From Hyphomicrobiales bacterium (GTDB lineage: Bacteria; Pseudomonadota; Alphaproteobacteria; Rhizobiales; Beijerinckiaceae): a DNA stretch of 64,000 bases. Under the pieces are notes generated by a model, which saw only the letters and a list, made by a program, of their open reading frames with translations, was not told where the DNA came from and searched no databases. The DNA is taken from contig RXIY01000071.1 of assembly GCA_003963405.1 (NCBI GenBank), positions 30,166 to 94,165 of the forward strand. Direction: 5' to 3'. Below are positions 16,984 through 63,369 of the stretch, one piece after another (position 1 is the first letter of the stretch; each line of letters opens with the position of its first letter). Made by a program: the position numbers and the translations under genes.

Positions 16984-17168
16984 TTCAACCTCTTGCTTTG
17001 TTCGAAAGCGGCGGGCGCCGCCCGGTCTTGCCCCGCCGAGGCGAAAACCCCTCGCCCCCTTCGTAATCGGCCGAGGAGATTTTTCAACCCGATTTTCGCC
17101 GCCCAGCCCTGCGCCCGCCTTGCGGCGCGAGGGCCTTGCGCTGGCCGCGAGCCTCCATTGGCCGCGGA

Positions 17169-17897: not shown

Positions 17898-17908
17898 GGT
17901 TCCTCTTC

Positions 17909-18535: not shown

Positions 18536-18766
18536 TCGATAACAGACACCGTTCGCATCTTTGCGACATTGAACACCATGTCGTGGACCGGCGCGTGTTC
18601 CACGGCGACCATTGCGCCGTTGATGTGCACAATCATTCTCACGAGCTACGGCGATGCCGGCGCGCCGCCTTTCGGCGGTATTTATCGGGCCAACGCCACC
18701 CGGTGTCAACGCCGTAGGAGAGGCGGCAGATGGCCTCCTACAAGCCCCAATGCGCCCCTGACGGGA

Positions 18767-19846: not shown

Positions 19847-19948
19847 CCTGCACTCTTTCCCTCGCGCCGGGCGCCGCCAGACTGCTTGCGGGCGAGGTCG
19901 ATCCCGCCCTTTGTTCACCGCTATATTCCAGCGCCGCCCCTGCCCTAC

Positions 19949-20944: not shown

Positions 20945-20962
20945 CGGCTTTGGCGCCCTTCT

Positions 20963-22084: not shown

Positions 22085-22434
22085 TCGGGGAATATCACAG
22101 TGTTCCGGATCGTGCTGGCGCCGGAGCCAGGGGCGGAAATTCGACGAGCTGCCGTTCTTGGGGAACCCATTATGCCTCACAGTCTGATGAAGGGCGCCCA
22201 GGGTCGGAAGCGGACCCCGGACCACGCAGGCGGCGTCGCCTCCCCCATTCCATTCAAAGGTCGCTCCTATCCCGTCGCAGGGTGGAGGGCGAGCTCCATG
22301 AAGCCTAACGTTAGGAGCGAGGTCAAAGTCAAGCTGACCCATCTCGGGCGAAGACCGACCGCGACAATAAGCTCTGTCGGAACATGATCAAGATGGATCG
22401 CCGCCCGCGCTTCCGGCGTGTCCCCGCAAGCATG
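22085..22434. other. 350-base gap inside the glycan cluster
   Basis: No supportable gene. The minus strand stays open in the aminotransferase frame for most of the gap, but the translation matches nothing I recognise. The gap is unusual in an otherwise tight operon and may hold a promoter or the remains of a lost sugar-modifying gene. Confidence 0.4.
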
Positions 22435-24519
22435 TCATTTTCTTACCTCCCGCATCGGCTCGTCGGCGACCACGGCGGCGGCGAGAACTTGCCTGGCGAG
22501 ATATTCGGACGCGGCTATTGTCATATGGGCGTCGTCCACCGCGGTGAGACCGGTATTGCGGTCGTCTCCGACGTAAATCTTGCACCCGCTTTCACGGCAG
22601 AACTGGTCAATGGCGCTGATGTAGATGAAGCCAGCCTTGTTTCGAAACTTTTCCTTTAGATATCCGTCGTAGAGAATGAATTTGTCTTCCAAATGGGCAA
22701 AGCTGTATCTTGGCGTGTCCGGCCAGAGCTTTACTGCGACAATAGCATGCAGATTATGCCGCCAATGCGGGACCGATCCCAAGAAGATCACCTTTTTTGC
22801 GCCGAGCTGCTTTAGATGGTCGCCGAGCGCGGTCATCACTTCAGGGCTGTGAACGCTGTCGTGCGCGACGACAACCACTTCCGGCTTCGTTACCGCGATC
22901 TGCTCGAGGGCAAACCAGTTGGACTGCTCGCAGTAATTGGTTGCGCTGCCGGCTGACACAATTACGGGGGCGCAGCCTGAACTTGCGACCTGCAGGATCT
23001 GCCAGTCTTCGGGAAGAGTCCGTTTAAGACCCGGATGGAGCTGCTGTGCATGGCTGTCCCCCCAAAGGAAGACGGCCATCCTGAATTTTGGGTCGCGCTC
23101 GTAGCATTCCTTTGCGATCCCGGCCTTGGGCACTGTGCTGATGAGCCCCGCACGGTGGGAGTCGAAATTGTAGAAGTCGCACTGGAGCCGGAATTCGGAC
23201 GAAACGTGCTGAGTCGTAAAATAACGCCACTCTGGGGGGTTATTATCGAAACGCGCCAGAAAGTCCCGGCGGGCTTCGTCATATCTCCCATCGAAGCCAT
23301 TGTTCATCACCGCCGACACGCCGAAAAAAAGCAGAAGAAGGCCGGCCGCAAAGCTGGAAGCAAAGATTTGGGGGCGGGTCAGAAAACGACCCGTTCGGAA
23401 CGGGCGCTCCACGAAACGCCAGGAAAAATAGGCGATGGGAAAAGTGGCCAGAACGACGACGCTGGCGGAACGCGTTGTGAGGCCTCCAAAATGAACGTTT
23501 CGGGCGAATGCCAGCAGGGGCTGGTGCCAGAGATAAGCGCTATAGCTGAGCAGGCCCACGGCGACGAGGGCTCTCGCCCCCAGAAGCTTGCCGACGATCG
23601 TGTGGCTTCTCGCGAAGAGGATGATCAGAACCGCGCCAATTGTCGGGGCGAGCGCGTAAAAGCCCGGAAATGGGGTTTGCCTGTCATAAGACATGATGGC
23701 GTAAAGGATCAAAAGCAGACCGATCCCGCCGGGAATTTCCCGCCAGCCCTTTCCAGCCAATCGCGGGCCATTTGGATAAAAGGCCGCGAAGGAGCCGAGA
23801 AAGAGTTCCCATGCTCTCGTCGGAAGCAGATAAAACGCCGCCGAGGGGTATCGGGGCAACGCCCATTGCGCCAGCAAAAAGCTGAGAACAGCGAGAGCGA
23901 TCAGCGCCTGGAGCGCGCGTCTCTCGCTTTTTCTCAGCAACAGGACGAGGAGAAAAGGGAAAAACAGGTAAAACTGTTCTTCGACCGCCAGACTCCACGT
24001 ATGGAGCAATGGCTTCAGCTCGGAGGCCGAGTCGAAATAGCCGCTGGTCGCGCTGAAAAATATGTTCGAAGTGAAAAGACAGACGGAAACCAGACTTTCG
24101 GAGAAGGTTGTCATTTCCTGCGGCGTCAGCAGGGCCCACGCAGCCGGCAGGCAGGCCGCCAGCATGAGAAGCAAAGCCGGAACAATGCGCCGGACCCGCC
24201 TCTCGTAGAAATTCACGATAGAGAACGAGCCGGCTCGAGCCTCGCTCATGATGATCGAGGCGATAAGATAGCCGCTGATCACAAAGAATATGTCCACGCC
24301 GACGAAGCCGCCCCTGGCGATATCGAAGCCCGCATGGAACAAGATGACGGGAACGACGGCCAGCGCACGGAGCCCGTCGATTTCAGGGCGATATACCAGG
24401 GCGTCATGCCGCTTCGGTCCCGATCCTGCCTCAGCGGAAGCAAACCCCCATGCGATCGATCCCATAATCCGGCGAGAGATCAGACGAGCCTGAGTCGGGA
24501 GCGTGGTAATTTTATCCAA
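22435..24519 (-). CDS. Acyltransferase 3 (OafA/YrhL type) with C-terminal SGNH domain
   Basis: A 694-residue membrane O-acyltransferase that moves acetyl groups onto surface polysaccharide. The N-terminal half is the acyltransferase_3 domain with about ten membrane segments. It opens with YRPEIDGLRALAVVPVILFH, followed by GGFVGVDIFFVISGYLIASI and the RRVRRIVPALLLML arginine motif. The C-terminal half (about 430-690) is a periplasmic SGNH domain with FLWGDSHAQQLHPGLKR (Ser nucleophile) and a final DDAHMT Asp-His pair. It is the first gene of the minus-strand glycan cluster. The ATG at 24519 is used; another at codon 19 would skip part of the cytoplasmic leader. Confidence 0.9.
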   Translation of the reverse strand: MDKITTLPTQARLISRRIMGSIAWGFASAEAGSGPKRHDALVYRPEIDGLRALAVVPVILFHAGFDIARGGFVGVDIFFVISGYLIASIIMSEARAGSFSIVNFYERRVRRIVPALLLMLAACLPAAWALLTPQEMTTFSESLVSVCLFTSNIFFSATSGYFDSASELKPLLHTWSLAVEEQFYLFFPFLLVLLLRKSERRALQALIALAVLSFLLAQWALPRYPSAAFYLLPTRAWELFLGSFAAFYPNGPRLAGKGWREIPGGIGLLLILYAIMSYDRQTPFPGFYALAPTIGAVLIILFARSHTIVGKLLGARALVAVGLLSYSAYLWHQPLLAFARNVHFGGLTTRSASVVVLATFPIAYFSWRFVERPFRTGRFLTRPQIFASSFAAGLLLLFFGVSAVMNNGFDGRYDEARRDFLARFDNNPPEWRYFTTQHVSSEFRLQCDFYNFDSHRAGLISTVPKAGIAKECYERDPKFRMAVFLWGDSHAQQLHPGLKRTLPEDWQILQVASSGCAPVIVSAGSATNYCEQSNWFALEQIAVTKPEVVVVAHDSVHSPEVMTALGDHLKQLGAKKVIFLGSVPHWRHNLHAIVAVKLWPDTPRYSFAHLEDKFILYDGYLKEKFRNKAGFIYISAIDQFCRESGCKIYVGDDRNTGLTAVDDAHMTIAASEYLARQVLAAAVVADEPMREVRK

Positions 24520-24831
24520 ATAATGGTCGCCCTGTTACGCAGCACAACCGTAACCGTTCTGCTGGATGTTGTTTGACGGACCCGGCCAAAAGCCCGGCTG
24601 GATATGGCTAAGCTATAGCTGGGTAATCAAAATTTCCGTAACAATAGAATGAAGCAAAACCCGAGTCAAAAAGGGTCGCGCCTTCAGTATAGCTCTGGCG
24701 GTTTGCTTCAGAGCTGGCCAAAGGCCGTCACTGCCGGACGTCCGAAATCGGGACGAGCGAGAATCCGGCGCACGGCAAAGCGGCCGCACGCCGAAACAGA
24801 AGGCTAACTCTTTGAAATATCTCTATGGAGC
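24520..24831. other. Intergenic region between glycan cluster and tRNA-Pro
   Basis: A roughly 310-base gap of mixed composition, AT-richer around 24620-24660. No gene, repeat or clear terminator is seen. It should contain the promoter of the acyltransferase gene. Confidence 0.4.
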
Positions 24832-24908
24832 TGGTCGGGGCAGCAGGATTCGAACCTGCGACCTGAAGTACCCAAAACTTCCGCGCTACCAGGCTGCGCT
24901 ATACCCCG
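24832..24908 (-). tRNA. tRNA-Pro (anticodon TGG)
   Basis: A complete 77-base cloverleaf with encoded CCA. The acceptor arms are CGGGGTA and TGCCCCG, the discriminator is A, and the anticodon loop TTTTGGG contains TGG. The T arm is GCAGG-TTCGAAT-CCTGC. The leading C and the GCGCAG D-arm start are typical of tRNA-Pro. Confidence 0.97.
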
Positions 24909-24974
24909 CCGGACCGGGAATTGCTATCCGGCCCCTTGTCGCTATCACGCGACGCATACTCCCACAAGGCGGCC

Positions 24975-25460
24975 TCAATTCCTGAAAGCCGGATGCCTGA
25001 CCGCATCGCCGGGTTTGAGCCCGATCTTCTTCGTGGCGCCGGCGTTGAGTTCGATCACGGCGTAAGCCTGGCCGCCAGGGATGACCTCTTCCGACATTGG
25101 CGTCGTGTCCGCTGCGATACTGGTCACGACCCCCTTCTTCGAAACGAACACCATATCGAGCGGGATATAGGTGTTCTTCATCCACATCATAATGGGAGTT
25201 TCCGTGTGGAAATCGAAAAGCATCCCCTGATCCGCCGGCAGTGCGCGGCGGAACATCAACCCCTTGGCCCGCTCCTCGGGCGTATCCGCCAATTCAACCT
25301 TGAAGACATGCGGTCCGCTGTCCGTCATGAACTCCAGGCGCTGGAGCGCCGTCTCCGCCCTGGTCCCCGTCGCGGCGACGAAGAACAAGAGCGATACAAC
25401 AAGTCCAGCGAAAGCGGACGCCCCGTCGGCGCGTCCCGTGGCGAAACGCCAAAGTCTCAT
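24975..25460 (-). CDS. DUF192 family exported protein
   Basis: A 161-residue protein with an N-terminal hydrophobic export signal (about 16-33) and a DUF192 beta-barrel domain. Diagnostic segments are [38 protein letters not shown] and [17 protein letters not shown]. The closing [19 protein letters not shown] is also typical. GGAGAG lies six bases before the ATG. The biochemical role of DUF192 proteins is not established. The gene follows a cold-shock-domain gene on the same strand with 62 bases between. Confidence 0.87.
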
Positions 25461-46914: not shown

Positions 46915-46999
46915 GCCCCTGTGGCGGAATTGGTAGACGCGCTCGACTCAAAATCGAGTTCCGCAAGGAGTGCTGGTTCGACTCCGGCCAGGGGCACCA
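46915..46999 (+). tRNA. tRNA-Leu (anticodon CAA)
   Basis: An 85-base class II tRNA with encoded CCA. The acceptor arms are GCCCCTG and CAGGGGC, the discriminator is A, the anticodon loop is CTCAAAA with CAA, and a long variable arm precedes the T arm. Its 3' end is the likely attachment site of the island to the right, since integrase remains follow directly. Confidence 0.97.
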
Positions 47000-47029
47000 C
47001 CCCAAAAATAAGTATATGGTTTTACAAGG

Positions 47030-47388
47030 TCTTCTTGTCTCGTCCCCCGCACCTTATGCGCGGGTGCGGGAATAGCCGTTCTTGTTTCGGGCTGCCCTAG
47101 CCTCAAGAGCGCGCCGCGCGAGGCGAGCGCGGTCGTATAGACTTCCGCCAGCGCCCACTCTCCCACCGCCTGAAGGTCATGGACACTGGCGCCAGCATTG
47201 GCCGGGCGCGTTGCACCGAACTTGCGGCGGTCATGGACCGAGCCGGGAACGCCCGCGGCCTTGCACGCATCCTTAAACCAGTTGCCGAAGCGGCCCGACC
47301 CCGTCGCGATTAACGCTAGACCGGTTGAAGGCGTCGCTTCAATCAGAGAGGCCAGCTCGGGCGAACGGAATATAATCGTCACGACCAT
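47030..47388 (-). pseudogene. Tyrosine integrase remnant (C-terminal part)
   Basis: Only the C-terminal catalytic part of a phage-type tyrosine recombinase is readable. It includes VTIIFRSPELASLIEATPST, GRFGNWFKDACKAAGVPG and VHDRRKFGATR (the His-x-x-Arg box). The next segment, VHDLQAVGEWALAEVYTTAL, corresponds to the helix with the tyrosine nucleophile. The N-terminal SAM-like domain and first catalytic arginine are missing. Lying next to the 3' end of tRNA-Leu and pointing at it, this is the usual position of an island integrase. It is almost certainly inactive. Confidence 0.75.
47046..47070. other. GC hairpin near the island junction
   Basis: CCCGCACC and GGTGCGGG form an 8-base stem with a 9-base loop, 47 bases after tRNA-Leu. 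It may terminate tRNA transcription, though a T-run is absent. Confidence 0.35.
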
Positions 47389-47592: not shown

Positions 47593-49632
47593 ATGTCTGG
47601 TTTTTTGTCGTTCCTCGGACGCATTGTTCGAGATTTCGTGCTTTCGCTCGCGTCTGGCCTGAAAGACCCATCCGCGCCGGGCCTTGTAACTCTTCTTCTC
47701 ATCATCGCCCTCGTCGTCGGCATCATCATCTATTTCCGAACGGCGGTCGCGAGACGCAATGCCATACTTTGGCTGCGTCGCCTGATCCTGAAGACCGATC
47801 AGACCAACTTCGCCGAAGAGATCAATGGGCTCGACTACACAGTCCACGCGGAAGCGAAAAGCGAAGCACGCAAGCAGGTGGCGACCGCGTGGCGTGAGTA
47901 TCGGGAAACGCTCGTCGCTCACGACGAAGGGGGCGCGGTCACCTATCGAAACTCGGTCCGCCCTTCGGTGTTTTTCAATCCGGAGGATCTGCATTTCGGG
48001 CCTGGCGGCTGGCGGACAATCCCGGGCCTTTTCGTCAGCGTCGGACTCTTTTTGACGTTCCTCGGTCTCATCGCCGCCCTGAGCTCGATGAATTTCTCCA
48101 CGCCAGAGACAGTCCAAACCTCGCTTCGCGAGCTCCTCACGATTGCCTCCGCGAAATTCATTATGTCTCTCACGGGATTGTTTTGCTCGATTATTTTCAC
48201 AGTTGTGCTTAGAGTTGGCATGTCCCGCGTTGAGCGCGCGGCCCATTTTCTCTGCGCGGACATCGAGACGCGGCTCACCTTCATCAGCCTCGAGGATCTT
48301 GCCGTCGAGCAACTGAGAGCGACACGTGAACAGCGCGACCACTTCCGGCAGATCGGCCTCGAACTCGTCGCGGAACTGAGCCGCCCCTTGCGGGAGGAAT
48401 TGCCGGCGGCGATTTCTAATTCCATGACATCGGCAATGGCGCCGCTCATGCAGCAGGTCGGCCAGGCCGGCGTCGAGGGAATGGACGAGATGGTCAAGGG
48501 CCTCTCGGCGCGCTTCTCCGACGACGTCGGCCGCGCGCTCGCCACCGCCGGCGAGAGTCTCGTCCAGGCAGGAGACCGGATCGCGGCGCTATCCGACCGG
48601 ATGGATCACAGCTCGGGCCGTGTCGCCATGGAGATGGACACGGCCGTCAACCGTCTGACGCAGGCCGTGGAGGAGTTGCGCGGCGCGATGGGCGCCACCG
48701 CCGAGACGACCTCGGGCGCCTTCGCACAAGGCGCGGAAAAGCTGTTCGCCGTCATGAACCAGACGCTGGAGGGCATCCGCGACAACACCGGCGAAGGCGC
48801 TCGCGCCCTATCCGCCGCCGCCGCCGACATGAAACAGGCCGCGCAGGGGTTCCGCTCCGAAATGGAAGCGGCTTCGCAGGAAGGCCGCGCCGCCGTGCGC
48901 GACCAGATCACGGCCGAGGGCGCCGCCGCCGCCGCCGCGATCGGATCGGCGGGCGTCGCCGTGCTCGACGCCATGGGCCGCACGACGCAGGAGATTTCCG
49001 ACCGGACGGAGCAGCTCGCCCAAAAGGCGGGACAGGAGCTGATCGCGCCGCTCGACGAGATCGCCGCGCGCCTTGCCGCCCTTGTCGCCGCCCTTACCGA
49101 AGGCGCGACCGGCATGCGCCGGCTTTCCGATGGCGTCCGCGGCGGAGCGGAGGCCACCGAACAGGCCGCGAGCAGCTTCCGCTCAGCATCGCAGGAACTG
49201 GTCGCCGCCGTCGCGCCGATCCGCTCGGCAAATGAGAGAATCGAGGTCGCGGTTACACAGCTCAAGGACAGCACGGCGCACGCCGCCGACACAGTCGCCC
49301 GCTCCTCCGAGGCGACCGCCCGCAGCGCTGCGCAGACCCTCGCCGCAGCCGAGCAGGCGCTTGGCGGCCAAGCCAGGGCGATCGAGACCTCGCTCACCGG
49401 TCTCGGCGCCCTGCTTGATCGCATGAAGGGCCAGGGCGACCGGCTCGACGACATTGACGACAAGCTCGGCAGGGCATTCGACGATTATACGCACCGCGTC
49501 GGCGCGGCCGTCGAGAGCCTCTTTGGTCATGTGCGCCGGATGCAGGATGAACTGGCGCCGGCGCTCGATACGCTGCGGGCCATCGTCGAGCAGGCCGAAC
49601 AGTTCGAACCTCAGAGCGCGAGGCGGTCGTGA
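47593..49632 (+). CDS. zorA: Zorya anti-phage defence protein ZorA (MotA/ExbB-like)
   Basis: A 679-residue inner-membrane protein. The MotA/TolQ/ExbB-like part has membrane segments near LVTLLLIIALVVGIIIYF (about 30-47), IPGLFVSVGLFLTFLGLIAA (about 140-160) and FIMSLTGLFCSIIFTVVLRV (about 193-212). From about 270 to the end it is a long Ala-rich coiled coil, the tail characteristic of ZorA. ZorA and ZorB form a proton-driven rotary complex in the envelope that senses phage infection and signals through the cytoplasmic tail. The last codons overlap the zorB GTG start by 4 bases. It opens a four-gene operon just inside the tRNA-Leu island. Confidence 0.93.
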   Translation: MSGFLSFLGRIVRDFVLSLASGLKDPSAPGLVTLLLIIALVVGIIIYFRTAVARRNAILWLRRLILKTDQTNFAEEINGLDYTVHAEAKSEARKQVATAWREYRETLVAHDEGGAVTYRNSVRPSVFFNPEDLHFGPGGWRTIPGLFVSVGLFLTFLGLIAALSSMNFSTPETVQTSLRELLTIASAKFIMSLTGLFCSIIFTVVLRVGMSRVERAAHFLCADIETRLTFISLEDLAVEQLRATREQRDHFRQIGLELVAELSRPLREELPAAISNSMTSAMAPLMQQVGQAGVEGMDEMVKGLSARFSDDVGRALATAGESLVQAGDRIAALSDRMDHSSGRVAMEMDTAVNRLTQAVEELRGAMGATAETTSGAFAQGAEKLFAVMNQTLEGIRDNTGEGARALSAAAADMKQAAQGFRSEMEAASQEGRAAVRDQITAEGAAAAAAIGSAGVAVLDAMGRTTQEISDRTEQLAQKAGQELIAPLDEIAARLAALVAALTEGATGMRRLSDGVRGGAEATEQAASSFRSASQELVAAVAPIRSANERIEVAVTQLKDSTAHAADTVARSSEATARSAAQTLAAAEQALGGQARAIETSLTGLGALLDRMKGQGDRLDDIDDKLGRAFDDYTHRVGAAVESLFGHVRRMQDELAPALDTLRAIVEQAEQFEPQSARRS

Positions 49633-50516
49633 GGGCCGTTCGGCGACGCCACCATGAGGACGAGGAGGAGTCCGCCTTCGTGTCGATGACCGACATGACG
49701 GTGAGCTTTCTCTTCATTGTGATGATCCTGCTCGCGTTCTTCGCATCGCAGCTGCGCGACCCCGACCGGGTGCCGCGCCGGCTCTATGACAGCGTCGTTA
49801 AGGAACGGGACAAGCTGCAGAGCGAAGTGCGTGAGCTTCAGAGGCAGTTGGAGCAGCTCAAAAATCGCACGATCGAGAATTATCTCGCCGCCGTGGCCCG
49901 GCAGCGACAAAAAATTCTTGAAGATCTCCAGACCAAATTGAGAACCGACTTTCCGGACCTGCAGGTCGAGATCAGCAACGAGAACGACGCGCTGCGCTTC
50001 AAAGGCGACGGTCTGTTCAAGACCGGATCGAGCGAACTTCGGCCCGACAAGCGCCGCATCGTGGAGACCATTGCCGCGCGCCTCGGCGAAGTGCTGCCCT
50101 GCTACACATTGGGACCGAGATCTTCCTGGAGCGACCGCTGCAACGCGGACGGCGTCGCCATCGAAGCCGTGCAGATAGAGGGACACACGGATTCGGACGG
50201 GCAGGACAACAATAACATGACGCTTTCCACCAACCGCGCCAACGAAACTTTCTTCGCCATGACGAAGCACGAGCCGACGCTCGTCGAGCATCTCAACGAC
50301 CGTGCGCAGCCCGTCCTGTCGGTGGCGGGTTACGGCAGAATGCGCCCAGTCGTCGACAATGCGACGCCGGAAGGAAAAGCGACCAACCGGCGCATCGACT
50401 TGAGGATAATCATGTCTACGCCCCGATCCCCAAGAGATATACTGAAGCTCAAGGACGATCTGCGCAGGGGCGTCGCGGTCGGCTCGGAGAGCGTTCCGCG
50501 GAGCGGCGCGCCATGA
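49629..50516 (+). CDS. zorB: Zorya protein ZorB (MotB-like, OmpA peptidoglycan-binding)
   Basis: A 295-residue partner of ZorA. A basic cytoplasmic start is followed by one membrane helix (about 21-40). The likely proton-carrying Asp22 lies in SMTDMTVSFLF, as in MotB-type stators. A coiled-coil linker (about 50-85) leads to an OmpA-like peptidoglycan-binding domain with QIEGHTDSDGQDNNNMTLST and YGRMRPVVDNATPEGKATNR. This anchors the complex to the cell wall. Start is GTG, with GTGA shared with zorA; the stop shares ATGA with zorC. Confidence 0.93.
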   Translation: MRAVRRRHHEDEEESAFVSMTDMTVSFLFIVMILLAFFASQLRDPDRVPRRLYDSVVKERDKLQSEVRELQRQLEQLKNRTIENYLAAVARQRQKILEDLQTKLRTDFPDLQVEISNENDALRFKGDGLFKTGSSELRPDKRRIVETIAARLGEVLPCYTLGPRSSWSDRCNADGVAIEAVQIEGHTDSDGQDNNNMTLSTNRANETFFAMTKHEPTLVEHLNDRAQPVLSVAGYGRMRPVVDNATPEGKATNRRIDLRIIMSTPRSPRDILKLKDDLRRGVAVGSESVPRSGAP

Positions 50517-51832
50517 GTCTCAGCGCGATCCTCTCGAAACCCGCCGTCTTTGACGCGCCAGGCCTCCCCGACCTGCAGATGCTGGAAGCGCGAAAGAACC
50601 GTATCCTCGACCGATGGCCCGACGTCGTCGTCACCCCGCCGGAGAAGGACCGCGAGCGCCTTGTCCAGGAGATGCGCCGTCGTCTGGAGTCGGATGACTG
50701 GCGCGAAACGCGCATGTCCTTCGTGACCTCCGCCGCACGGGCGCTGTTCGACGCGGACCGCCGGGCGCGGCCCGACCTCGCGGGGCTGCGCGACTTCTAC
50801 TATGACGAAATAAGGGCCACGACGCGCCGGTCTTTTCTCGACGCCATGCTCTCAGTCTATCTCGTATCCTACGAACCTGGCGCGCCCCACACACAGCGCT
50901 TCGCATCGGCTCTCGGTAGCGCCTGGCCACGCATTGGCGCGAGGTGGCGGCGGCTTCGTGAGAACATTCCCGAGCTTCTCGACCCCGATCGCGCGCCGAC
51001 GGCGATCGCCCTGAAAATGACCGCGATGGACGACTGCTGGCGCGGCCTGCAGGCGCTCGGCCTGCGCACCCCCCACGCGCCCGGCCTGATGGACCACGCA
51101 CACCTGGCATTCGTAGAACTGATGCGGCCACACCTGAAAGGCAGGGCGGCGCTAGAGCGGCTGTTTCGCTGGCTCAAACCGGATGGGCAAAAGGCGAGAA
51201 TATCGGGCGCGGCGGAAGCAATCACGGCGGCGCTCGAACCGTGGTTGAAGCAGGAGCCGCCGCAGGACGTGCTGACCTTCATCACCGAGGCATTAATGGG
51301 CATGTATGGCGATCCGCGCGTCATGGGCGGCGGCGCCTGGGCGGGCGTCCCGCCCGATTGCCTCGCGGTGATCATGCGCTGGCTGACGGGAGAAAACATC
51401 CGCTTCTTCTTGGATGTAATATCAGCGGTGGAGAAGAGCCACATGTTCCCTCCTCGCAGAAAATTCTGGCTCTCCCTTCACGAGGAAAAGCGCATCGATG
51501 CCGCGTGGGTCGCGTTCAGTGACAGCGGAGCTAGGTTCGCGGCTAACCAGACTAACTCGGCGAGCGGGAGGAGCTCATTGAGCTTTGGGCGCCAAATAGC
51601 GCGAGGAGTTCGTAAAGATACGTCCCTTCTTATCCTGAAAATCGGGAGCAAGATCGTTGTGGAAGGCTCCCATAGTTACAAGGTCCACATTTTTAAGGAG
51701 AGTAATCCGAACGCTCCGGCGCTCTATCTGCAGGAATATGACTGTGAGGCGATCAGACGAATAAGCGGTTCCGAAAAGAAAACTCACGACGAATACGGGT
51801 ATTGGCAGGGCTGGGTGCTAGAACGGATTTGA
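50513..51832 (+). CDS. zorC: Zorya protein ZorC (EH-signature domain)
   Basis: A 439-residue soluble protein matching ZorC by position, length and the EH-signature part. The C-terminal half includes WAGVPPDCLAVIMRWLTGEN and FLDVISAVEKSHMFPPRRKF followed by WLSLHEEKRIDAAWVAFSDS. ZorC is a cytoplasmic effector needed by type I Zorya and is thought to bind DNA with ZorD. The ATG overlaps the zorB stop by 4 bases. From about 51490 to 51780 the base composition is visibly less GC-rich than in zorA and zorD, consistent with foreign origin. Confidence 0.88.
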   Translation: MSLSAILSKPAVFDAPGLPDLQMLEARKNRILDRWPDVVVTPPEKDRERLVQEMRRRLESDDWRETRMSFVTSAARALFDADRRARPDLAGLRDFYYDEIRATTRRSFLDAMLSVYLVSYEPGAPHTQRFASALGSAWPRIGARWRRLRENIPELLDPDRAPTAIALKMTAMDDCWRGLQALGLRTPHAPGLMDHAHLAFVELMRPHLKGRAALERLFRWLKPDGQKARISGAAEAITAALEPWLKQEPPQDVLTFITEALMGMYGDPRVMGGGAWAGVPPDCLAVIMRWLTGENIRFFLDVISAVEKSHMFPPRRKFWLSLHEEKRIDAAWVAFSDSGARFAANQTNSASGRSSLSFGRQIARGVRKDTSLLILKIGSKIVVEGSHSYKVHIFKESNPNAPALYLQEYDCEAIRRISGSEKKTHDEYGYWQGWVLERI

Positions 51833-51841
51833 GGGCCAGAG

Positions 51842-54800
51842 ATGTTCGATCTCCACTTCGATGCGGGCGACCTTCGCCTCACCTTGAAGGCAACGCGCGA
51901 GGGTCTCCTGCAACGCCTTGTGACGCGCGCCCGCAAGCGCGACCTCGAACATCTGCCGCCGAGCGACCGCGACCTCATCCTCGCGCTCGCCGATCTGCGC
52001 GCGCTGGCGGAGGATACGAAGGAGGCGCTGGAGATCGGCGCGGATCAGATCCGCCTCTCGCACCGCCTCGCGGCGGCGCTGCCGGGTGAGACGGCGCGGA
52101 TTCTCGGCCTGCCGTCGCTCGTCGATCTCACCTTGCGGACCGACGCCGAGGGGCTCGTCGGCTCTCCGAATTTCCGTCTCAAGGCCGAATGGTTTCGCAA
52201 CGGCCAGCGTCAGGCGCCGCGCAGGACGGGCGCGATCCTCGAGACATCAAGCGGCCCGCGGCGATTGCCGCTCTGGCTCATGGAAGCCGTCGAGGTCGCC
52301 GAAGGATTCCGGCCGGGCGGCGGCGACATCGACCATTGGGGCGCGCTGGCGCGATTCAGGCAGGCGCTCGATCCCGGCGTGCGCATCGCCGACAGCGCCG
52401 CCGCCGCCAGGGTCTCGATGACCGATTTCCTCTCCGGCCTGCAGGTGCGCGTGGCCGACCGGCTGTCGATCGCCGCGAACGCGGCCGGCGATGACTTCGA
52501 GGTCGTGCCCTTCTCGGGCCGGCGGATCGGCGAGAAAAACGAAGACGGCGCCGTCTCGGAAAGCGACAGTGAATTGAGCGGCCACGACCTCGGCCTGTTC
52601 CAGAGACGGGTCCGCGAGCGCGGCGCGACGCCGGCCTATCGTCTGGGGCCTGGCAGCTTTCTCGTCATCGACCGAGCGGCGCTGCCGGCGCTCGACGTTA
52701 TGGCTGGGATGCAGCACGCGCCGCGGGCCGAGCGCGCCGCGTTCATCCGCAACCCCCGCCCCCGCATCACTGAAGCGGTCGAGGCGGCATTGCGCAGGGA
52801 GGGCCGCCTCGACGACCTCGGCCCCGAAGCGGAAGAAGAGGCGATCGAAAATGTCGCGGGACCGGTCTTTGTCGAGACGCGGGAGTTCTCGGAACGCGTG
52901 ACGGGCGTCAAGGTCTTCGAAAAACCCGACCTCGGCGATTTTACCGGCAGCGGGACGACCTGGCTCGAGGAGGAATTCGCGCGCCGGGTCGCGGAGATCC
53001 TCGGCGACCTGCCGGCGGCGGCAATCGGAGAATTGCGCGAGCAGGTGACGCAGGCCATCGAGCAGGGACGGAAGGCGGTCCCTCTGGCCGACATTCATCT
53101 GCCGGCGCGTCCCGAGATGATCGCGACCCTCGACGTCCATCTCGAACGGGCGCGGCGGAAGGACGCCGACGACCGGACGGAAGACCCGGCGGATGAATCC
53201 GCCGGACCGACCGGCCCCCATGTTCTCGACGGCAAGAAGAATTTCCACGACATCGAATGGTTGGCGAAATTCCAACGCCGCGCGCCGCGCGTGGCGGCGG
53301 TCGTTCCCGAGGCGATCCGAACGCCGCTGAAGCCGCATCAGGTCGAGAGCTTCGACTGGCAGGTCGCGGCGTGGCGGGCCGGTCTTCCCGGCGTCCTGAA
53401 CGCCGATGAGCAGGGTCTCGGCAAGACGCTGCAAACGATCGCGTTTCTAGTCTGGCTGAAATCTCACATGGCGGAGGCAGACGCGGCGCAGCGCGGACCC
53501 GTGCTGATCGTGGCGCCGACGTCGCTGCTCGAAAACTGGGAGCAGGAGGTGGCGCGGCACGTCTGCGAGCCGGGCCTCGGCCATCTCATCCGCCTCTACG
53601 GCTCCGCCATTTCAAGCCGGAAGCTGACGGGGAAAGCTGGTCGCGATATCGACAGCGGCGAGATCAAGCTCGACTTCGGGTTTCTGACAGAGGCGATGGA
53701 AGAAGGCCGAGCCCACCGCTTCTGGCTGCTGACGACTTATACAACCCTGACCAATTACCAGCATTCGCTCGGCCGCATCCCCTTCAGCGCCCTCGTTTTC
53801 GACGAGATCCAGACGCTCAAGAACCCAGCGGCCCTGCGCACGCAGGCCGGATTGTTCATGAATGCCGATTTCCGCATCGGCTTGACCGGCACGCCGATCG
53901 AAAACAGCACCATCGATCTTTGGGCCATAATGGAACAACTTGCCCCCGGATCGCTCGGAAGCTTCAAGGATTTCAGAACCCGTTACGAGTCGCCGGACGG
54001 CGACAACATGGCGGAATTGCACGGACGCGTCTTCAAGCCGCTGGACGGACGGCCTGCCCTCGCCCTTCGCCGCACGAAAGATCAGGTCGCACGCGACCTG
54101 CCCGAAAAAACCCGGCGCCTCCACCCCCGGCTGATGCCGCATGGCCAGGCCTCGGTCTACGATGACGCAAGACTGAAGCTCGCTCAGGGAGGGATGGGCG
54201 CAGCCCTGAAGATGCTGCATCATATCCGCTCGGTCTCCGTTCATCCGAGCCTGGACGAGACGACCGCCGACTCGGATTTCATCGAGGCTTCGGCGCGCCT
54301 GTCGGCGACTTTCGATATCCTCCGGCGCATTGCGGCGCGCCGCGAGCGCGCCCTCGTCTTCATCGAACATCGCCTGATGCAGCATCGCTTCATAGAGCTG
54401 GCGCGCGCGGAATTCGGCTTGAGCCGCATCGACCTCATCAACGGCGAAACGCCCATCCCGAAACGCCAGGCCATCGTCAACCGCTTCCAGCGTCATCTGG
54501 ACGATGATCACGGTTTCGATATTCTCGTCCTTGGTCCAAAGGCTGCCGGCGTCGGCCTGACGCTCACGGCCGCCACGCACGTCATTCATCTCTCGCGATG
54601 GTGGAATCCTGCGGTCGAGGAGCAATGCAACGACCGCGTCCATCGTCTCGGGCAGACGCGCCCCGTCACCATCCACTTACCGATGGCCATACATCCGGCC
54701 TATCGAGAAAACTCCTTCGACTGTCTTCTTCAAAGCCTCATGCAGCGAAAGCGCAAACTGGCAAGTTCCGCCCTTTGGCCGATGGGCGATACGGAGGCGG

Positions 54801-54946
54801 ATGTCGCTGAACTCCAGAAAATGCTGAACGCAGAGAAAACCGCATGCGCGGGAGACCCGGTCATGGCCGCACTCTCGGCTCTCTTTCAGCGCGATGGCAT
54901 GCCGTGTCCCATCATTGATCCCGATGGGTCGGCGCCAATCGGGTAG
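51842..54946 (+). CDS. zorD: Zorya protein ZorD (SNF2-type helicase/translocase)
   Basis: A 1034-residue SF2/SNF2 ATPase, the DNA-degrading effector of type I Zorya. The N-terminal half has no motif I recognise. The motor begins near residue 490 (LKPHQVESFDWQVAAWRAGL). Walker A is DEQGLGKTLQTIAFL (about 521), the Walker B box is DEIQTLKN (about 654), and motif III is LTGTPIENS (about 681). The second RecA domain has VLGPKAAGVGLTLTAATHV and HLSRWWNPAVEEQCNDRVHR. It follows zorC by 9 bases and ends 12 bases from the convergent hsdR. All motor motifs look intact. Confidence 0.93.
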   Translation: MFDLHFDAGDLRLTLKATREGLLQRLVTRARKRDLEHLPPSDRDLILALADLRALAEDTKEALEIGADQIRLSHRLAAALPGETARILGLPSLVDLTLRTDAEGLVGSPNFRLKAEWFRNGQRQAPRRTGAILETSSGPRRLPLWLMEAVEVAEGFRPGGGDIDHWGALARFRQALDPGVRIADSAAAARVSMTDFLSGLQVRVADRLSIAANAAGDDFEVVPFSGRRIGEKNEDGAVSESDSELSGHDLGLFQRRVRERGATPAYRLGPGSFLVIDRAALPALDVMAGMQHAPRAERAAFIRNPRPRITEAVEAALRREGRLDDLGPEAEEEAIENVAGPVFVETREFSERVTGVKVFEKPDLGDFTGSGTTWLEEEFARRVAEILGDLPAAAIGELREQVTQAIEQGRKAVPLADIHLPARPEMIATLDVHLERARRKDADDRTEDPADESAGPTGPHVLDGKKNFHDIEWLAKFQRRAPRVAAVVPEAIRTPLKPHQVESFDWQVAAWRAGLPGVLNADEQGLGKTLQTIAFLVWLKSHMAEADAAQRGPVLIVAPTSLLENWEQEVARHVCEPGLGHLIRLYGSAISSRKLTGKAGRDIDSGEIKLDFGFLTEAMEEGRAHRFWLLTTYTTLTNYQHSLGRIPFSALVFDEIQTLKNPAALRTQAGLFMNADFRIGLTGTPIENSTIDLWAIMEQLAPGSLGSFKDFRTRYESPDGDNMAELHGRVFKPLDGRPALALRRTKDQVARDLPEKTRRLHPRLMPHGQASVYDDARLKLAQGGMGAALKMLHHIRSVSVHPSLDETTADSDFIEASARLSATFDILRRIAARRERALVFIEHRLMQHRFIELARAEFGLSRIDLINGETPIPKRQAIVNRFQRHLDDDHGFDILVLGPKAAGVGLTLTAATHVIHLSRWWNPAVEEQCNDRVHRLGQTRPVTIHLPMAIHPAYRENSFDCLLQSLMQRKRKLASSALWPMGDTEADVAELQKMLNAEKTACAGDPVMAALSALFQRDGMPCPIIDPDGSAPIG

Positions 54947-54958
54947 CGAGGCGCCTGG

Positions 54959-57900
54959 CTAGGCTGCGGCCCTGTCCCTGATTTGCTGAAGAATTTCCAC
55001 AAGCGACGTCACTTCGCTCTTTGCGAACATGCCGCTGACGCCGTGGGCGTGCATCCCGTCGAAGGGAGCCTCGTAGAGGCGGCCGGGGTCGAGCACGCCG
55101 TTCTCCGTCAGTTCGGCGAGCATCATGTCGATGAATTCGATCTGATTGGCCGTGAGCGCCCGTCCGATCACGAAACCATCGAGCGCCTGCTTCGCCGCCT
55201 CGCGTTCGAGACCGACGAGTGAGCGCACGAAGAGACCGAGCCCGCCATATTCCTCTCGGGCGCGCGCGAGGTCCTGCTCCTCGCCCACGGCCTCCTCCAG
55301 GAACATGCGTTCAAGCTCGGAGAGGTCCTGGCGGGTGAGTTGTTCGTTGCGCCGCAACTTCGAAATGGCGATATGATTTTCGTGCCTGGACAGGAAATGC
55401 CGGGCCTTCATCTTGAAGCGCGCCTTGTCCGCCCCGGTGGCGACCGGAATGGCGACGTCCTCCGCTGGCCCGATGTCGTCCACGAAATTCGTATAGATCA
55501 CCTTGCGGTCCCTGGGCTCGATCAGCTTCACCAGCTTCCTCAGCTTCCGGCGAACCTCTTCGAGCATGGGCAGCGTAATGTCGCGCCAGTATTCTTCAGT
55601 TTGCACCTCGAGGATCAACGCCATCTCGGCGGCGACCATCGGGACGTTCTTCATCTCTTCGAGTTGCGCCGCAATATCCTGTATCTTCTTGCGGCAAGCC
55701 GCCAGCGCCGGCTCGGCGCGCAGGAGCGCGATCTCGGCGCGCAGCACGAGCAGGTCGAACTGCTTCGCGCCAAGATCGTCGTCTTTGTAGGCGCTGGGCA
55801 GGCCGGCAAGATGATCGCAAAGTTCGGCGCGGTCCTCGGCGCCGAGCCGCTCCCAGGCCTCCTTCTTCTGGAATTTCTCGACATAGCGGCGTTTCGGCCG
55901 AACGATGAAATTGTCGAGGCTCATGCTGCCGACTTCGTCCAAGAGGCGCTCCTTCAAGCCATTGGCGACCTTCACGAGCGGCTCGTCGTCCTTATCCACA
56001 TCCTTGAGTTCGCCCAGCAGTTCGACCCGCGCCTTGAACAGCTTCGCGCCGAGCGGCTCGCCGAGCGCGCCCTCGGAGAGTTTGGGATTCTGATTGAAGA
56101 ACTCGAAATTCTGGCAGAAATCGAAAATCCGAAAGTGATCCTTGTGCTGGTCAGGGCCGAAGAGATTGGGGCGCAGGCGCGTGCCGCGTCCGATCATCTG
56201 CCAGAACTTGGTCTTGGAGCGGACGATCTTGAAGAAGACGAGATTGACCACGTCCGGCACGTCTATGCCCGTGTCGAGCATATCGACGGAGATCGCGATC
56301 TGCGGCTCTCGCGCGGGATCGGAGAACTCGTCGATCAGCGTCTGCGCGTAAGCGGTGTGATAGTCGATCACCCGCGCGAAATTGCCCTTGAAATGCGGGT
56401 AGTTCGCGTCGAACCGGCGGGCGATGAATTTGGCATGGTCGCTGTTCTTGGCGAAGATGATCGTCTTGCCGAGCCTGTCCCCCTCCTCCACCTTCAGGCC
56501 GTGAGTCATCAGATGTTCGAGCACCTTGTCGACCGTATCCTCGTTGAACAGCCACTTGTTGAGCGCCGCGGCGTCGACGCTGTCGGGAATGGCGCCGTCC
56601 TCGCTCCATTCGATCGCGTCCCACCGGGTCTTTTCCTCTTCCGACAATTCATCGTAGCGGATGCCTTCGCGCTGGAAGCGCAGCGGCACGGAGATCGCCC
56701 TCGGGGGCGCGAGATAGCCGTCGGACACCGCCTGATCGAGATCGTAGGCGTCGGTCGGCACCCCGCGCTCCAGCTCGAAAAGCGCATAGGTGTCGCGGTC
56801 GATCTCGTCGCGCGGCGTCGCGGTCAGGCCGACGAGGAGACAGTCGAAATAGTCGAAAATCGCCTTGTATTTGCGATAAACCGAACGATGCGCCTCATCG
56901 ATGACGATGAGGTCGAAATGGCCGGGTCCGAAGCGACGCACGCCGTTTTCCACGTCGTCGATCAGCCCCATCATGGTCGGATAGGTCGAGACGTAGATGC
57001 GGCCGTCGGTTTGCTTGTCGGTCACGAGATTGACCGGCGCAGCGTGGGGCATTGTCTCCTTGAAGGCGCGGACGGCCTGGTTCACCAGCGCCACGCGATC
57101 GGCGAGAAAGAGCGCGCGCTTCACCCAATTGGCGCGCATCAGCAGATCGACGAGGGCGATCACCGTGCGCGTCTTGCCGGTGCCGGTGGCCATCACGAGC
57201 AGGGCCTTGCGCAAATGGTCCCGCTCGAATCCTTCCGTCACGCGGCGGATGGCCCTGGTCTGGTAGCGGCGGTCGATGATGGCGGGATCGGGCGCGAGGC
57301 TCGCCAGCGGGCGGCGCGTCGTGCGGCGCTGATGCAGGAGCAGCAGCTCGTCTTTTTTCAAAAACCCCTGCACCGGACGCGGCGGATAGCTGGCGTCGTC
57401 CCAGAGCCAGTGCTCATAGCCATTGGTGTAGAAGATGGCCGGCCGCTGGCCGAACATTCTTTCGAGACAATCGGCGTAGAGCTTCGCCTGCTGCTGGCCA
57501 ACGCGCGGGTCTTTTCGCGTGCGCTTCGCTTCGACGAGGGCGAGCGGCTTGCCGTCGTCGCCCCAGAGCACATAATCGACGAAGCCCTGTCCGCTCTGGG
57601 TCGGCATGCCGGAGACCTCGAATTCGCGGTCTCTCGGCTTGTCGAGCCGCCAGCCGGTTTCGTGCAGCAGATTGTCGATGAAGGCGTCGCGGGTCTCCTC
57701 CTCGCGGTAATCGTGGGCGTCGGGCGTCGCCGCATTGGCCTTCTTGATGGCGGCGATCTCGGCGCGCAGGCGGGCGAGTTCGGCGTCGAGCGCCTCGCGC
57801 TCGGCCTGCGTCTTCGCCCGCGTCGCCTCGCGCGTTTTCGCCTCGTCGGCATAGCGGCGGGCGATCTCCTTCAGCCGCCCGAGGGTGGTGACGTCGACCT

Positions 57901-58333
57901 GGGCGACGCGGGGCAGCGCGTCGGCGGAGAATTGCTCGGCGGCCGCGGGCTTGGCGCCCTTGGCGTAGGTGCGGGCGAGCCAATAGCTGAAATGGAAGAA
58001 TTCGCGCAGCGCCGTGACGGCCGCCTGCGGAGCGACGGGGCGCGGATCATGCACGGCGCGATTGCCGAAATCCTTGACGATCTGTGCCTTGGCGACGAGG
58101 CCGGGGCCGACGAGCCGGCGCAGACTCGGCTCGTGGATCAGCGCCGCGAGCGCCTTGTCGTAAGGCCAGCGCAGCGCGCCGTCGCGCTCGTACATCCACA
58201 AAAGCGCGGTCTCCAGCGCGAGCCGCGCATAGAAACAGGCGGCGCGCGGATCGGCGAGCGCAAGCGTCTCGGCCTTGCGCGCATGGTCGTGGACGGAAGC
58301 GAATTCGGCTTGGAGGAAGGCGAATTGCGACAT
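54959..58333 (-). CDS. hsdR: Type I restriction endonuclease subunit R (HsdR, EcoEI-like)
   Basis: A 1124-residue motor-nuclease subunit. It starts with a DUF4145-type helical domain (about 5-110) and a coiled coil (about 150-200). A PD-(D/E)xK nuclease follows, with Asp at about 252 in FVDYVLWGDDGK and Glu-Ala-Lys in PLALVEAKRTRKD. The SF2 motor has Walker A in VMATGTGKTRTVIAL (about 380), the DEAH box in VIDEAHRSVYRKYK (about 475), GLTATPRDEIDRD (about 500) and MIGRGTRLRPNLFG. The C-terminus is EcoEI-R-like. A truncated hsdS lies 11 bases upstream on the same strand and no hsdM is present, so the restriction system looks broken or dependent on subunits elsewhere. Confidence 0.92.
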   Translation of the reverse strand: MSQFAFLQAEFASVHDHARKAETLALADPRAACFYARLALETALLWMYERDGALRWPYDKALAALIHEPSLRRLVGPGLVAKAQIVKDFGNRAVHDPRPVAPQAAVTALREFFHFSYWLARTYAKGAKPAAAEQFSADALPRVAQVDVTTLGRLKEIARRYADEAKTREATRAKTQAEREALDAELARLRAEIAAIKKANAATPDAHDYREEETRDAFIDNLLHETGWRLDKPRDREFEVSGMPTQSGQGFVDYVLWGDDGKPLALVEAKRTRKDPRVGQQQAKLYADCLERMFGQRPAIFYTNGYEHWLWDDASYPPRPVQGFLKKDELLLLHQRRTTRRPLASLAPDPAIIDRRYQTRAIRRVTEGFERDHLRKALLVMATGTGKTRTVIALVDLLMRANWVKRALFLADRVALVNQAVRAFKETMPHAAPVNLVTDKQTDGRIYVSTYPTMMGLIDDVENGVRRFGPGHFDLIVIDEAHRSVYRKYKAIFDYFDCLLVGLTATPRDEIDRDTYALFELERGVPTDAYDLDQAVSDGYLAPPRAISVPLRFQREGIRYDELSEEEKTRWDAIEWSEDGAIPDSVDAAALNKWLFNEDTVDKVLEHLMTHGLKVEEGDRLGKTIIFAKNSDHAKFIARRFDANYPHFKGNFARVIDYHTAYAQTLIDEFSDPAREPQIAISVDMLDTGIDVPDVVNLVFFKIVRSKTKFWQMIGRGTRLRPNLFGPDQHKDHFRIFDFCQNFEFFNQNPKLSEGALGEPLGAKLFKARVELLGELKDVDKDDEPLVKVANGLKERLLDEVGSMSLDNFIVRPKRRYVEKFQKKEAWERLGAEDRAELCDHLAGLPSAYKDDDLGAKQFDLLVLRAEIALLRAEPALAACRKKIQDIAAQLEEMKNVPMVAAEMALILEVQTEEYWRDITLPMLEEVRRKLRKLVKLIEPRDRKVIYTNFVDDIGPAEDVAIPVATGADKARFKMKARHFLSRHENHIAISKLRRNEQLTRQDLSELERMFLEEAVGEEQDLARAREEYGGLGLFVRSLVGLEREAAKQALDGFVIGRALTANQIEFIDMMLAELTENGVLDPGRLYEAPFDGMHAHGVSGMFAKSEVTSLVEILQQIRDRAAA

Positions 58334-58344
58334 GCGGGCGCCCG

Positions 58345-58785
58345 CTAGAGTTGGCCGGTGAAGGCGCGATGTTGGAGGGAGGAGAACAAAGTGTTCATCG
58401 AATTTATATGCTCGTATTCCTGCTTAATCAGCGCCCTAGAGAGACTAATTCTTTCGCAGAAGGATTGCTGTAGAGGGAGCGGGGGACGGGGTATCTCGAA
58501 AGCGCGGATTTGCTCGAAATTCAAGCCCGGCTTTGTCTGCCCGTATTGACATTTCTCGATTTGGCGCTGTCCACCATCTCGCAGGCTGAGGTAGAATGAA
58601 AGGAAATCAGGAAGCAGCTTCTGTCGATCCACCCGGATGATCGCGACGTGCTGGCTGATATACGCGCCGCCATGCTCGCTAGAGGTAGCTGAAACGCGCC
58701 CGATTTTGGAGCCCGTGATTGTAAGAAGAACATCGCCGCTCCGACAGCCATGATGATTGTCTCCGACCGCGTCGGGATCGTCCTG
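58345..58785 (-). pseudogene. hsdS: Truncated type I specificity subunit (hsdS, C-terminal part)
   Basis: An open frame of about 146 codons holding the end of an HsdS protein. Recognisable parts are RSGDVLLTITGSKIGRVSA, YISQHVAIIRVDRQKLLPDF and TKPGLNFEQIRAFEIPRPPL, then LPLQQSFCERISLSRALIKQ and the ending LQHRAFTGQL. This is one target-recognition domain's C-terminal half plus the distal conserved helix. Upstream at 58786-58788 is an in-frame TAG, and the expected first recognition domain is absent. A shorter ORF begins at an ATG at 58632. It cannot specify a two-part recognition site by itself. Confidence 0.8.
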
Positions 58786-59353: not shown

Positions 59354-59785
59354 ATGAATAAGCTTGCGCTCTGCTTTGGCCTCGTCACTTCAATGGCAAT
59401 GGCGGGCTGCGCGACCATGACGCGCGGAACAACTCAAACAGTGGCCATCAACACCGGCGCATCCGGCGCCGTATGCACGCTTATTTCCCCATCTATCGGC
59501 ACGCAGACGGTGACGACGCCCGGCGTCGTCACCCTCGCCAAGGGCTCAAGCGCTGTCTCCATCCGATGCAGCAAGGAATGCTACAGCGATGGAACCGGCG
59601 TCCTTGCATCGAACATGGACGGGATGACGGCGGGAAATGTGGTCGTCGGCGGAGTCATTGGACTCGGGGTGGACGCCGCCACTGGCGCAATGAACCAGTA
59701 TGCTCCGCAAGCAGACATCGTGATGGCTCCAGACGGTTCCTGCACAGCGCCGGCAGCGCCTTTTTTACGCCGAAGCCGGCGGTGA
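59354..59785 (+). CDS. Small lipoprotein
   Basis: A 143-residue lipoprotein. The signal peptide ends in a lipobox (AMAGC, cysteine at residue 19). The mature part begins ATMTRGTTQTVAINTGASGA and continues CTLISPSIGTQTVTTPGVVT and IRCSKECYSDGTGVLASNMD. A Gly/Val-rich hydrophobic hairpin (GNVVVGGVIGLGVDAATGAM) follows. Similar proteins are common in Proteobacteria and of unknown role. AAAGGAA precedes the ATG. The C-terminus PFLRRSRR comes just after a run of six T, where a frameshift would extend the protein. Confidence 0.8.
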   Translation: MNKLALCFGLVTSMAMAGCATMTRGTTQTVAINTGASGAVCTLISPSIGTQTVTTPGVVTLAKGSSAVSIRCSKECYSDGTGVLASNMDGMTAGNVVVGGVIGLGVDAATGAMNQYAPQADIVMAPDGSCTAPAAPFLRRSRR

Positions 59786-62184: not shown

Positions 62185-63369
62185 TTACGCCGGGCCGCCG
62201 TCTTGTCGCGAGACGGCGCAAAAACCATTGAGGACCAGCGTCCTGACGAGATCCAATTTACCCGCCGCCTCCGGGGGGCCGGGCAATTCCTGAATCTGAA
62301 ACCTTGCGGTTTGCAGCGCAAAAATCAGGCCGGAACGAACGGAAGGATCGAAGGAGACCGCAACGCCCTGCCCCATCAGCCTTATAGCGTCCGGGCCCGT
62401 CTCGATCGAATAGAGCAGGTCCTTTCGGACCTCGATCCAGCTGTTTTGGGAAAGCGCATGAGCCTGTCCGACGCTTTCTCTCGGATTTTCGATCCACGGA
62501 GATCGGCTCGAGAGCAGCTCATTCCAGATCGAGCGCAGGCCGAGCTCGAGGCGCGCCGATTCCGCAAGCCTGTTGATCAGACGCGAGAACGCTTCTTCCA
62601 GGTCCGCACGATCGGCGCCCAGAAAACCCATGGGGAGACTCGCACGGAAAGCTGCATCCTTTCTCAGGGCATCCGCTACCGAGCGTTGGAGAACATCGAC
62701 CCAAGTGTAGGGGAAACTGTAAAGGGAGATATGTAAGGAGGGCTGATCCGCCGCGCAGACAAGGTGCGGGAAGCCTCGGGGAACGTAAAGCATGTCGCCG
62801 GCGTTGAGCGTATATTGCGCCAGCGGATTTTCGTCGGCTAAAGCATCATAGCAATGCTCATCTCGCAGCGGCAACGTCTGCGAAGGATAGACGCGCCATT
62901 GCTTCGAGCCGGAGATTTGCAGCGCGAAGACATTATTGGCGTCGTAGTGAACAGGAAAAGCCCGCCCCCCCGCCGGAGCCCAGTACGCATTGGCGGAAAA
63001 CGGCGAGTTGAAATATTTCTCCATTGAACGGCAGAGCGTCGCAACGGAGACGCAATAGGCGTCGACGTTTCTGTGAACGATCGTTGCGCCCTCTTCAAAA
63101 AGCTCGAACAGACGCACCGCATCGACCTCGCCGCGCGCGTCTGCATATTCGTCGGTCGCGATCTTCCTTCGGCTGTCGATGGCAAAAACTTGCGTGTACT
63201 GTGGACGCGACAGGAGATGGAGCCTGTCCATGTCCTCCAGACGAAAGAGCGACGCGTGATAACTGGCGGATGACCTCTGCAGAAAAAGCGGTTTCTTTTC
63301 GAAATGCTCCAGCGCAAATGCGCGCGCGCCGACCGGGCGCAGCAATTCTTCGAGACCGAAATCCGGCAT
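62185..63369 (-). CDS. JmjC/cupin-8 type Fe(II)/2-oxoglutarate oxygenase
   Basis: A 394-residue protein of the ROXY/MINA-like JmjC group (cupin_8). The iron triad is His141-x-Asp143 in FPVHYDANNVFALQISGSK and His202 in GDMLYVPRGFPHLV. Lys156 in GSKQW is a possible 2-oxoglutarate ligand. The N-terminal EHFEKKPLFLQRSSASYHAS is the family's opening. The C-terminal winged-helix-like part (about 250-390) resembles the dimerisation region of ribosomal oxygenases. Members hydroxylate protein side chains, such as Arg of ribosomal protein uL16. The gene lies 64 bases downstream of a repeat-protein gene, with a terminator between. Confidence 0.85.
   Translation of the reverse strand: MPDFGLEELLRPVGARAFALEHFEKKPLFLQRSSASYHASLFRLEDMDRLHLLSRPQYTQVFAIDSRRKIATDEYADARGEVDAVRLFELFEEGATIVHRNVDAYCVSVATLCRSMEKYFNSPFSANAYWAPAGGRAFPVHYDANNVFALQISGSKQWRVYPSQTLPLRDEHCYDALADENPLAQYTLNAGDMLYVPRGFPHLVCAADQPSLHISLYSFPYTWVDVLQRSVADALRKDAAFRASLPMGFLGADRADLEEAFSRLINRLAESARLELGLRSIWNELLSSRSPWIENPRESVGQAHALSQNSWIEVRKDLLYSIETGPDAIRLMGQGVAVSFDPSVRSGLIFALQTARFQIQELPGPPEAAGKLDLVRTLVLNGFCAVSRQDGGPA

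Follow-up and report, generated by a model that had tools for sequence, protein, structure and literature searches.

An apparently complete type I Zorya operon in a tRNA-Leu-edged variable region of an alphaproteobacterial chromosome

Do the four closely packed genes at positions 47593 to 54946 of a Hyphomicrobiales chromosome stretch of 64,000 nucleotides (the window, meaning the whole stretch of DNA analyzed here) make up an anti-phage system, and if so, of which type and in what state of preservation? A previous sequence-only reading had proposed a type I Zorya operon of four genes that overlap or nearly touch, and the open reading frames bear this out. All four lie on the forward strand. 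The first, zorA (47593–49632), encodes a MotA-like membrane motor subunit of 679 amino acids with a long coiled cytoplasmic tail, and zorB (49629–50516), which begins with GTG, encodes a MotB-like protein of 295 amino acids that combines a single transmembrane-like segment with a peptidoglycan-binding domain of the OmpA type. They are followed by zorC (50513–51832), encoding an EH_Signature protein of 439 amino acids, and zorD (51842–54946), encoding a putative SNF2-type ATPase/helicase effector of 1034 amino acids. Because zorA/zorB and zorB/zorC overlap by 4 bases each and only 9 bases separate zorC from zorD, the four genes would form one translationally coupled operon.

Profile searches place each protein in the same family. 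The best PADLOC models are ZorA1 (PDLC00600, E = 4.4e-291, 965 bits, residues 5–677 of 679), ZorB1 (PDLC00612, E = 6.2e-121, 401 bits), ZorC1 (PDLC00619, E = 6.6e-184, 610 bits, residues 1–439), and ZorD1 (PDLC00629, E = 0, 1348 bits, residues 2–1030), and all four proteins cover these type I models nearly end to end. Pfam adds OmpA in ZorB (PF00691, E = 1e-10), EH_Signature in ZorC (PF15611, E = 2.7e-62), and SNF2-rel_dom together with Helicase_C in ZorD. Among solved structures, ZorA matches the type I ZorA of 8vvn in a phmmer search (E = 1.3e-12) as well as 8qyk and 8qyd, ZorB matches the type I ZorB of 8vvn amid many OmpA-type chains, and the best phmmer match of ZorD is chain 8qy7 (E = 8e-70). 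The order zorA-zorB-zorC-zorD on one strand is that of type I Zorya. The gene content, order, family membership, and conserved residues of the operon are thus established, and we consider it almost certain, judging from these sequence features, that positions 47593–54946 encode a complete type I Zorya anti-phage system within a tRNA-Leu-edged variable region of this chromosome. Zorya is a known family, as had been noted; the operon is an ordinary further copy of type I and reveals no new principle.

Several results weigh against this assignment. With the NCBIfam models, ZorA scored 189 of 190 bits on the subfamily model, just below its curated cut-off, and fell far short of the equivalog cut-offs for type I ZorA1 (NF041794, 48.8 of 750 bits) and, for the helicase, ZorD (NF041790, 280 of 1500 bits); ZorC had no match among the NCBIfam models, nor a sequence match to any solved structure up to E = 0.1. 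Pfam called no nuclease domain in the window's ZorD, and none either in the ZorD proteins of Escherichia coli or Zymomonas. Since the NCBIfam scores fall under the curated cut-offs, the operon appears distant from the E. coli type. It is therefore an intact-looking type I Zorya that NCBI equivalog models would leave unnamed, and it supplies divergent natural variants of ZorC and ZorD for structure–function work.

Whether the motor subunits keep their working residues was examined in an alignment of 13 rows, which was also used for ZorC. The residues that Hu et al. 2025 reportedly tested are E. coli ZorA T147 and S184, ZorB D26, ZorC E400 and H443, and ZorD D730/E731. The E. coli plasmid copy that we aligned bears those letters at all of these positions. 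ZorB Asp22 had been described as intact, and the column is Asp in all 13 rows; D188, L199, R203, R254, and R259 are likewise identical throughout, while His186 is found in 12 of the 13 rows, the E. coli row having Phe. Both polar-ring residues of ZorA, T155 and S192, are identical in every row, and the seven ZorB and two ZorA positions are all kept in each of the ten named relatives. According to PMC11890865, type I defense in Serratia marcescens needs the ZorB motor Asp together with H186, L199, R203, R254, and R259. The window's ZorB carries D22 and, under the same numbers as in S. marcescens, all five of the others. This shared numbering from H186 to R259 also led us to drop the greater length of ZorB relative to its E. 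coli counterpart as a novelty. With the binding residues and the OmpA domain present, the window's ZorB is predicted to bind peptidoglycan.

The effector genes were compared in the same manner, with 12 rows for the residue columns of ZorD. In ZorC, E384 aligns with E. coli E400 in a column of Glu (9/13) or Asp (4/13), and H425 stands in a column of His in 12 rows; the E. coli row has Arg there, its H443 lying out of alignment with this column. All the helicase motifs of ZorD that had been called intact were located, namely GLGKT (525–529), FDEIQ (653–657), GTPIEN (683–688), and DRVHRLGQT (931–939), and K528, D654, and E655 are unchanged in 12 of 12 rows. The protein deviates at 2 of 153 near-invariant columns (Gly670 and Glu698), both outside the located motifs. 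The alignment therefore reveals no loss of catalytic residues among those checked, and the operon is probably functional. By analogy with type I Zorya of other species, ZorD would act as a nuclease and the operon would protect against phage.

It is also conceivable that the Zorya genes are silent or no longer work and persist as cargo that an old integrative element brought along. The nearby integrase and hsdS genes, described below, are both remnants, so the region has decayed. However, none of the four zor frames is truncated or interrupted, and the residues checked are retained. Moreover, a genome of the same genus (G010, locus L007) has four long frames at another place on its chromosome, encoding proteins 67–80% identical to those of the window (ZorD, 80%). 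Taken together, we regard a defunct passenger as unlikely. The G010 operon lies near 1.03–1.04 Mb of contig C6 and, unlike that of the window, away from the match to the tRNA-Leu piece, which is at 0.878 Mb of the same contig. The presence of Zorya at two places in two species would fit horizontal movement.

Besides the window, 21 distinct loci were read for gene order (L007, L009, L038–L046, and L051–L060). The A-B-C-D order was observed in 20 of them; in the remaining one, L046, the contig ends after zorC. Outside this count are the ZorC matches in G061, G192, G153, G292, G196, G138, G117, G211, and G132 and on a second Zymomonas plasmid. Of 101 genomes comprising the window's own genome and its relatives, 5 gave a ZorC match, that in G061 being weak with an internal stop; among genomes drawn from the phylum, own genome included, the count was 16 of 299. 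This patchy distribution is as expected for a defense system. A search of genome contigs with a four-row ZorC alignment yielded the ten named loci (L051–L060), which come from Bosea, Devosia (two), Cypionkella, Sinirhodobacter, Rhodovulum, Ruegeria, Gluconobacter, Camelimonas, and a Rhodobacterales bin; Camelimonas is alphaproteobacterial, and the other named loci presumably are as well. A single-sequence ZorC query of the genome contigs gave no match, and no relative was confirmed in the viral contigs.

The conserved company of these genes bears on a reading in which an unrelated MotAB-type motor happens to adjoin a housekeeping SNF2 helicase. ZorB does match OmpA and MotB families as well, and Pfam does not call MotA_ExbB in the window's ZorA, but an E. 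coli ZorA control also stays under that Pfam cut-off, the best models for ZorA and ZorB are those of type I Zorya, and an EH_Signature gene and zorD accompany zorAB in those 20 loci. A chance neighborhood of this kind is very improbable and is contradicted by the gene order and by the profile searches, which assigned all four proteins to type I Zorya. That the operon is a type II or type III Zorya whose effector is unusual is more improbable still, since the weak PADLOC matches of ZorA and ZorB to models of those types (43 bits for ZorA2 at best versus 965 for ZorA1, 75 for ZorB2 versus 401 for ZorB1) are outscored and zorC and zorD, the marks of type I, are present.

Within type I, the closest likeness is to the alphaproteobacterial operons. 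Those of L051–L060 and G010 share with the window the four genes, their order, and the ZorD Walker A sequence DE[QP]GLGKT, and in the nine named loci with a one-piece ZorD this protein is 56–63% identical to that of the window. The zorD of Camelimonas lactis (L008 5968–9037, the same stretch as L059) is split over two reading-frame pieces, representing either a broken copy or an assembly error. The operon of Zymomonas mobilis plasmid pZA1001 (L039) also has the A-B-C-D order, and its ZorD is 51% identical; these plasmid-borne genes are annotated as MotA/TolQ/ExbB, OmpA, EH signature, and DEAD/DEAH helicase and are not named Zorya. A RelB/YafQ toxin–antitoxin pair adjoins them. The type I Zorya of E. 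coli/Klebsiella plasmids (NZ_LT985249.1; ZorD structure 8qy7) shares the order, domains, motor Asp, and Walker motifs, whereas its ZorD is 32% identical to that of the window over residues 348–952, its ZorC has 560 amino acids and runs 94 residues past the end of the window's ZorC, and, besides the Phe at His186 of ZorB, its Walker A reads DDMGLGKT. NZ_LT985249.1 (L038) is typed as conjugative and carries Zorya near aminoglycoside-resistance genes and IS26. For the systems of S. marcescens ATCC 274 and Shewanella ANA-3, which differ in species and sequence, PMC11890865 gives the same ZorB defense residues, five of them at identical numbers, and the window's ZorA and ZorB match the corresponding structure 8vvn.

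A further question is whether the operon belongs to a sublineage of its own. In a ZorD tree of 20 rows, the window grouped with 12 alphaproteobacterial rows (a 13-row group) with a support of 100/100. L059 was left out of this tree, and only the longer ZorD piece of the Camelimonas stretch was aligned. The Walker A form DE[QP]GLGKT occurs in 14 of 14 loci of the group's kind (the 13 tree rows, window included, plus L059), and DDMGLGKT in 7 of 7 others. ZorC is 433–443 amino acids long in the group's aligned rows and 460–473 in the others, apart from the E. coli length given above. Counting against a sublineage, the tree program warns that long branches meet at the group, which may therefore be joined falsely. 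Moreover, three alphaproteobacterial rows fall outside it: L009 from the window's family, L044 from its class, and L040 from Azospirillum. The case for a short ZorC as the group's hallmark is weakened, too, as among the 13 rows only that of E. coli has the 94-residue tail, and the seven other rows outside the group (L009, L040, and L042–L046) run just 8–23 residues past the end of the window's ZorC. Because this tail is absent from the other rows, we slightly lowered an already low estimate. We therefore offer only tentatively, and consider rather doubtful, the idea that the operon represents a distinct type I sublineage, so far alphaproteobacterial, in which the Walker A of ZorD has changed and ZorC is slightly shorter; such a sublineage may couple motor and effector unlike the E. 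coli type. In any case, the divergence lies within type I and does not constitute a new type.

How a type I Zorya of this composition might act can be outlined from other species, the published mechanism being the best-supported account. By that account, a rotary motor of five ZorA and two ZorB subunits, driven by ions, would assemble in the inner membrane. Upon disturbance of the envelope by a phage, the periplasmic domain of ZorB would bind peptidoglycan, and ion flow past Asp22 of ZorB would turn ZorA. The long cytoplasmic ZorA tail would carry the signal and recruit and activate ZorC and the ATPase/nuclease ZorD, which together would attack DNA and so may protect the host. Accounts of the outcome differ: in one, the entering phage DNA is degraded (PMC12904381, summarizing Hu et al.), and in the other, host DNA is damaged and immunity is population-wide (Mariano et al. 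2025, PMC11890865).

The setting of the operon was the remaining part of the question. A tRNA-Leu(CAA) gene (46915–46999, +; ARAGORN) forms the edge of the variable region, in line with the tRNA linkage originally suggested. Five relatives' loci around this tRNA (L018 and L020–L023) were picked from 35 matching genomes as holding it; the chromosome to its left is conserved in them up to the tRNA, and in all five, DNA similarity to the window stops at 46999–47088. An open frame of 146 amino acids (46948–47388, −), which overlaps the tRNA in its final part, had been taken for an integrase remnant. Its residues 9–125 are 56% identical to the C-terminal third of a 372-amino acid protein of G031 that matches Phage_integrase (PF00589, E = 1.3e-13) and adjoins the same tRNA-Leu, facing it, which upholds the identification as the C-terminal remnant of a tyrosine integrase. 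Two results speak against this identity: the frame has no Pfam match of its own, and a Phage_integrase profile search of its genome found 29 places, none on this contig. No match of at least 13 bases to the 3′ part of tRNA-Leu was found elsewhere in the window as a second attachment site, and its last 25 bases have no repeat in the window with up to 3 mismatches, so the right edge was not located. Because a cupin-type gene at 62185–63369 is rare in the genus, being found in 1 of 36 other genomes searched (G036), the variable stretch may extend past 63 kb.

Downstream of the operon lie the genes previously described as restriction remains. This description suits hsdS, a C-terminal fragment (58348–58785, −; Methylase_S PF01420, E = 1.3e-6, profile positions 61–165 of 168) located upstream of hsdR, but not hsdR itself (54959–58333, −), a type I restriction subunit R with a full open frame of 1124 amino acids (PADLOC REase_I PDLC03047, E = 1.2e-169) and the Pfam domains ResIII, EcoEI_R_C, and HSDR_N. 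The genome's two matches to PF02384, the hsdM-type methylase, are on contigs C10 and C118 and not on this one. Near full-length hsdR relatives occur in other families, in G083 (56%) and G075 (50%). The hsdR gene is convergent with zorD and separated from it by 12 bases. We considered HsdR as a fifth Zorya component and rejected it: at E values up to 1e-8, hsdR had no match in the ten named loci, with flanks of up to ~6 kb searched on each side (<1 kb on one side of L057 and on both sides of L058), nor in L007, L008, or L009. Counting against this rejection is a distant HsdR-like match (37%) in G010, ~10 kb from its Zorya and outside L007. We treat hsdR as a neighbor and not as part of Zorya. 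PADLOC found no further defense protein in 20 other window open reading frames scanned, which are part of those in the window. The defense island that had been postulated consequently stands as Zorya beside hsdR: as far as scanned, it comprises two systems, of which the first is complete and the second lacks adjacent partners.

A small lipoprotein-like gene beyond hsdS (59354–59785, +; phrog_6823) has a relative directly 5′ of zorA in G010. It was rejected as a Zorya partner, as G010 has a second copy and the gene is also found in G002 and G018, which have no ZorC match. Elsewhere in the window, positions 17001–25000, in which PADLOC reported nothing among the four open reading frames scanned, lie between tRNA-Arg and tRNA-Pro genes and are mostly of lower G+C content (0.57–0.64 per kb versus 0.635 for the window).

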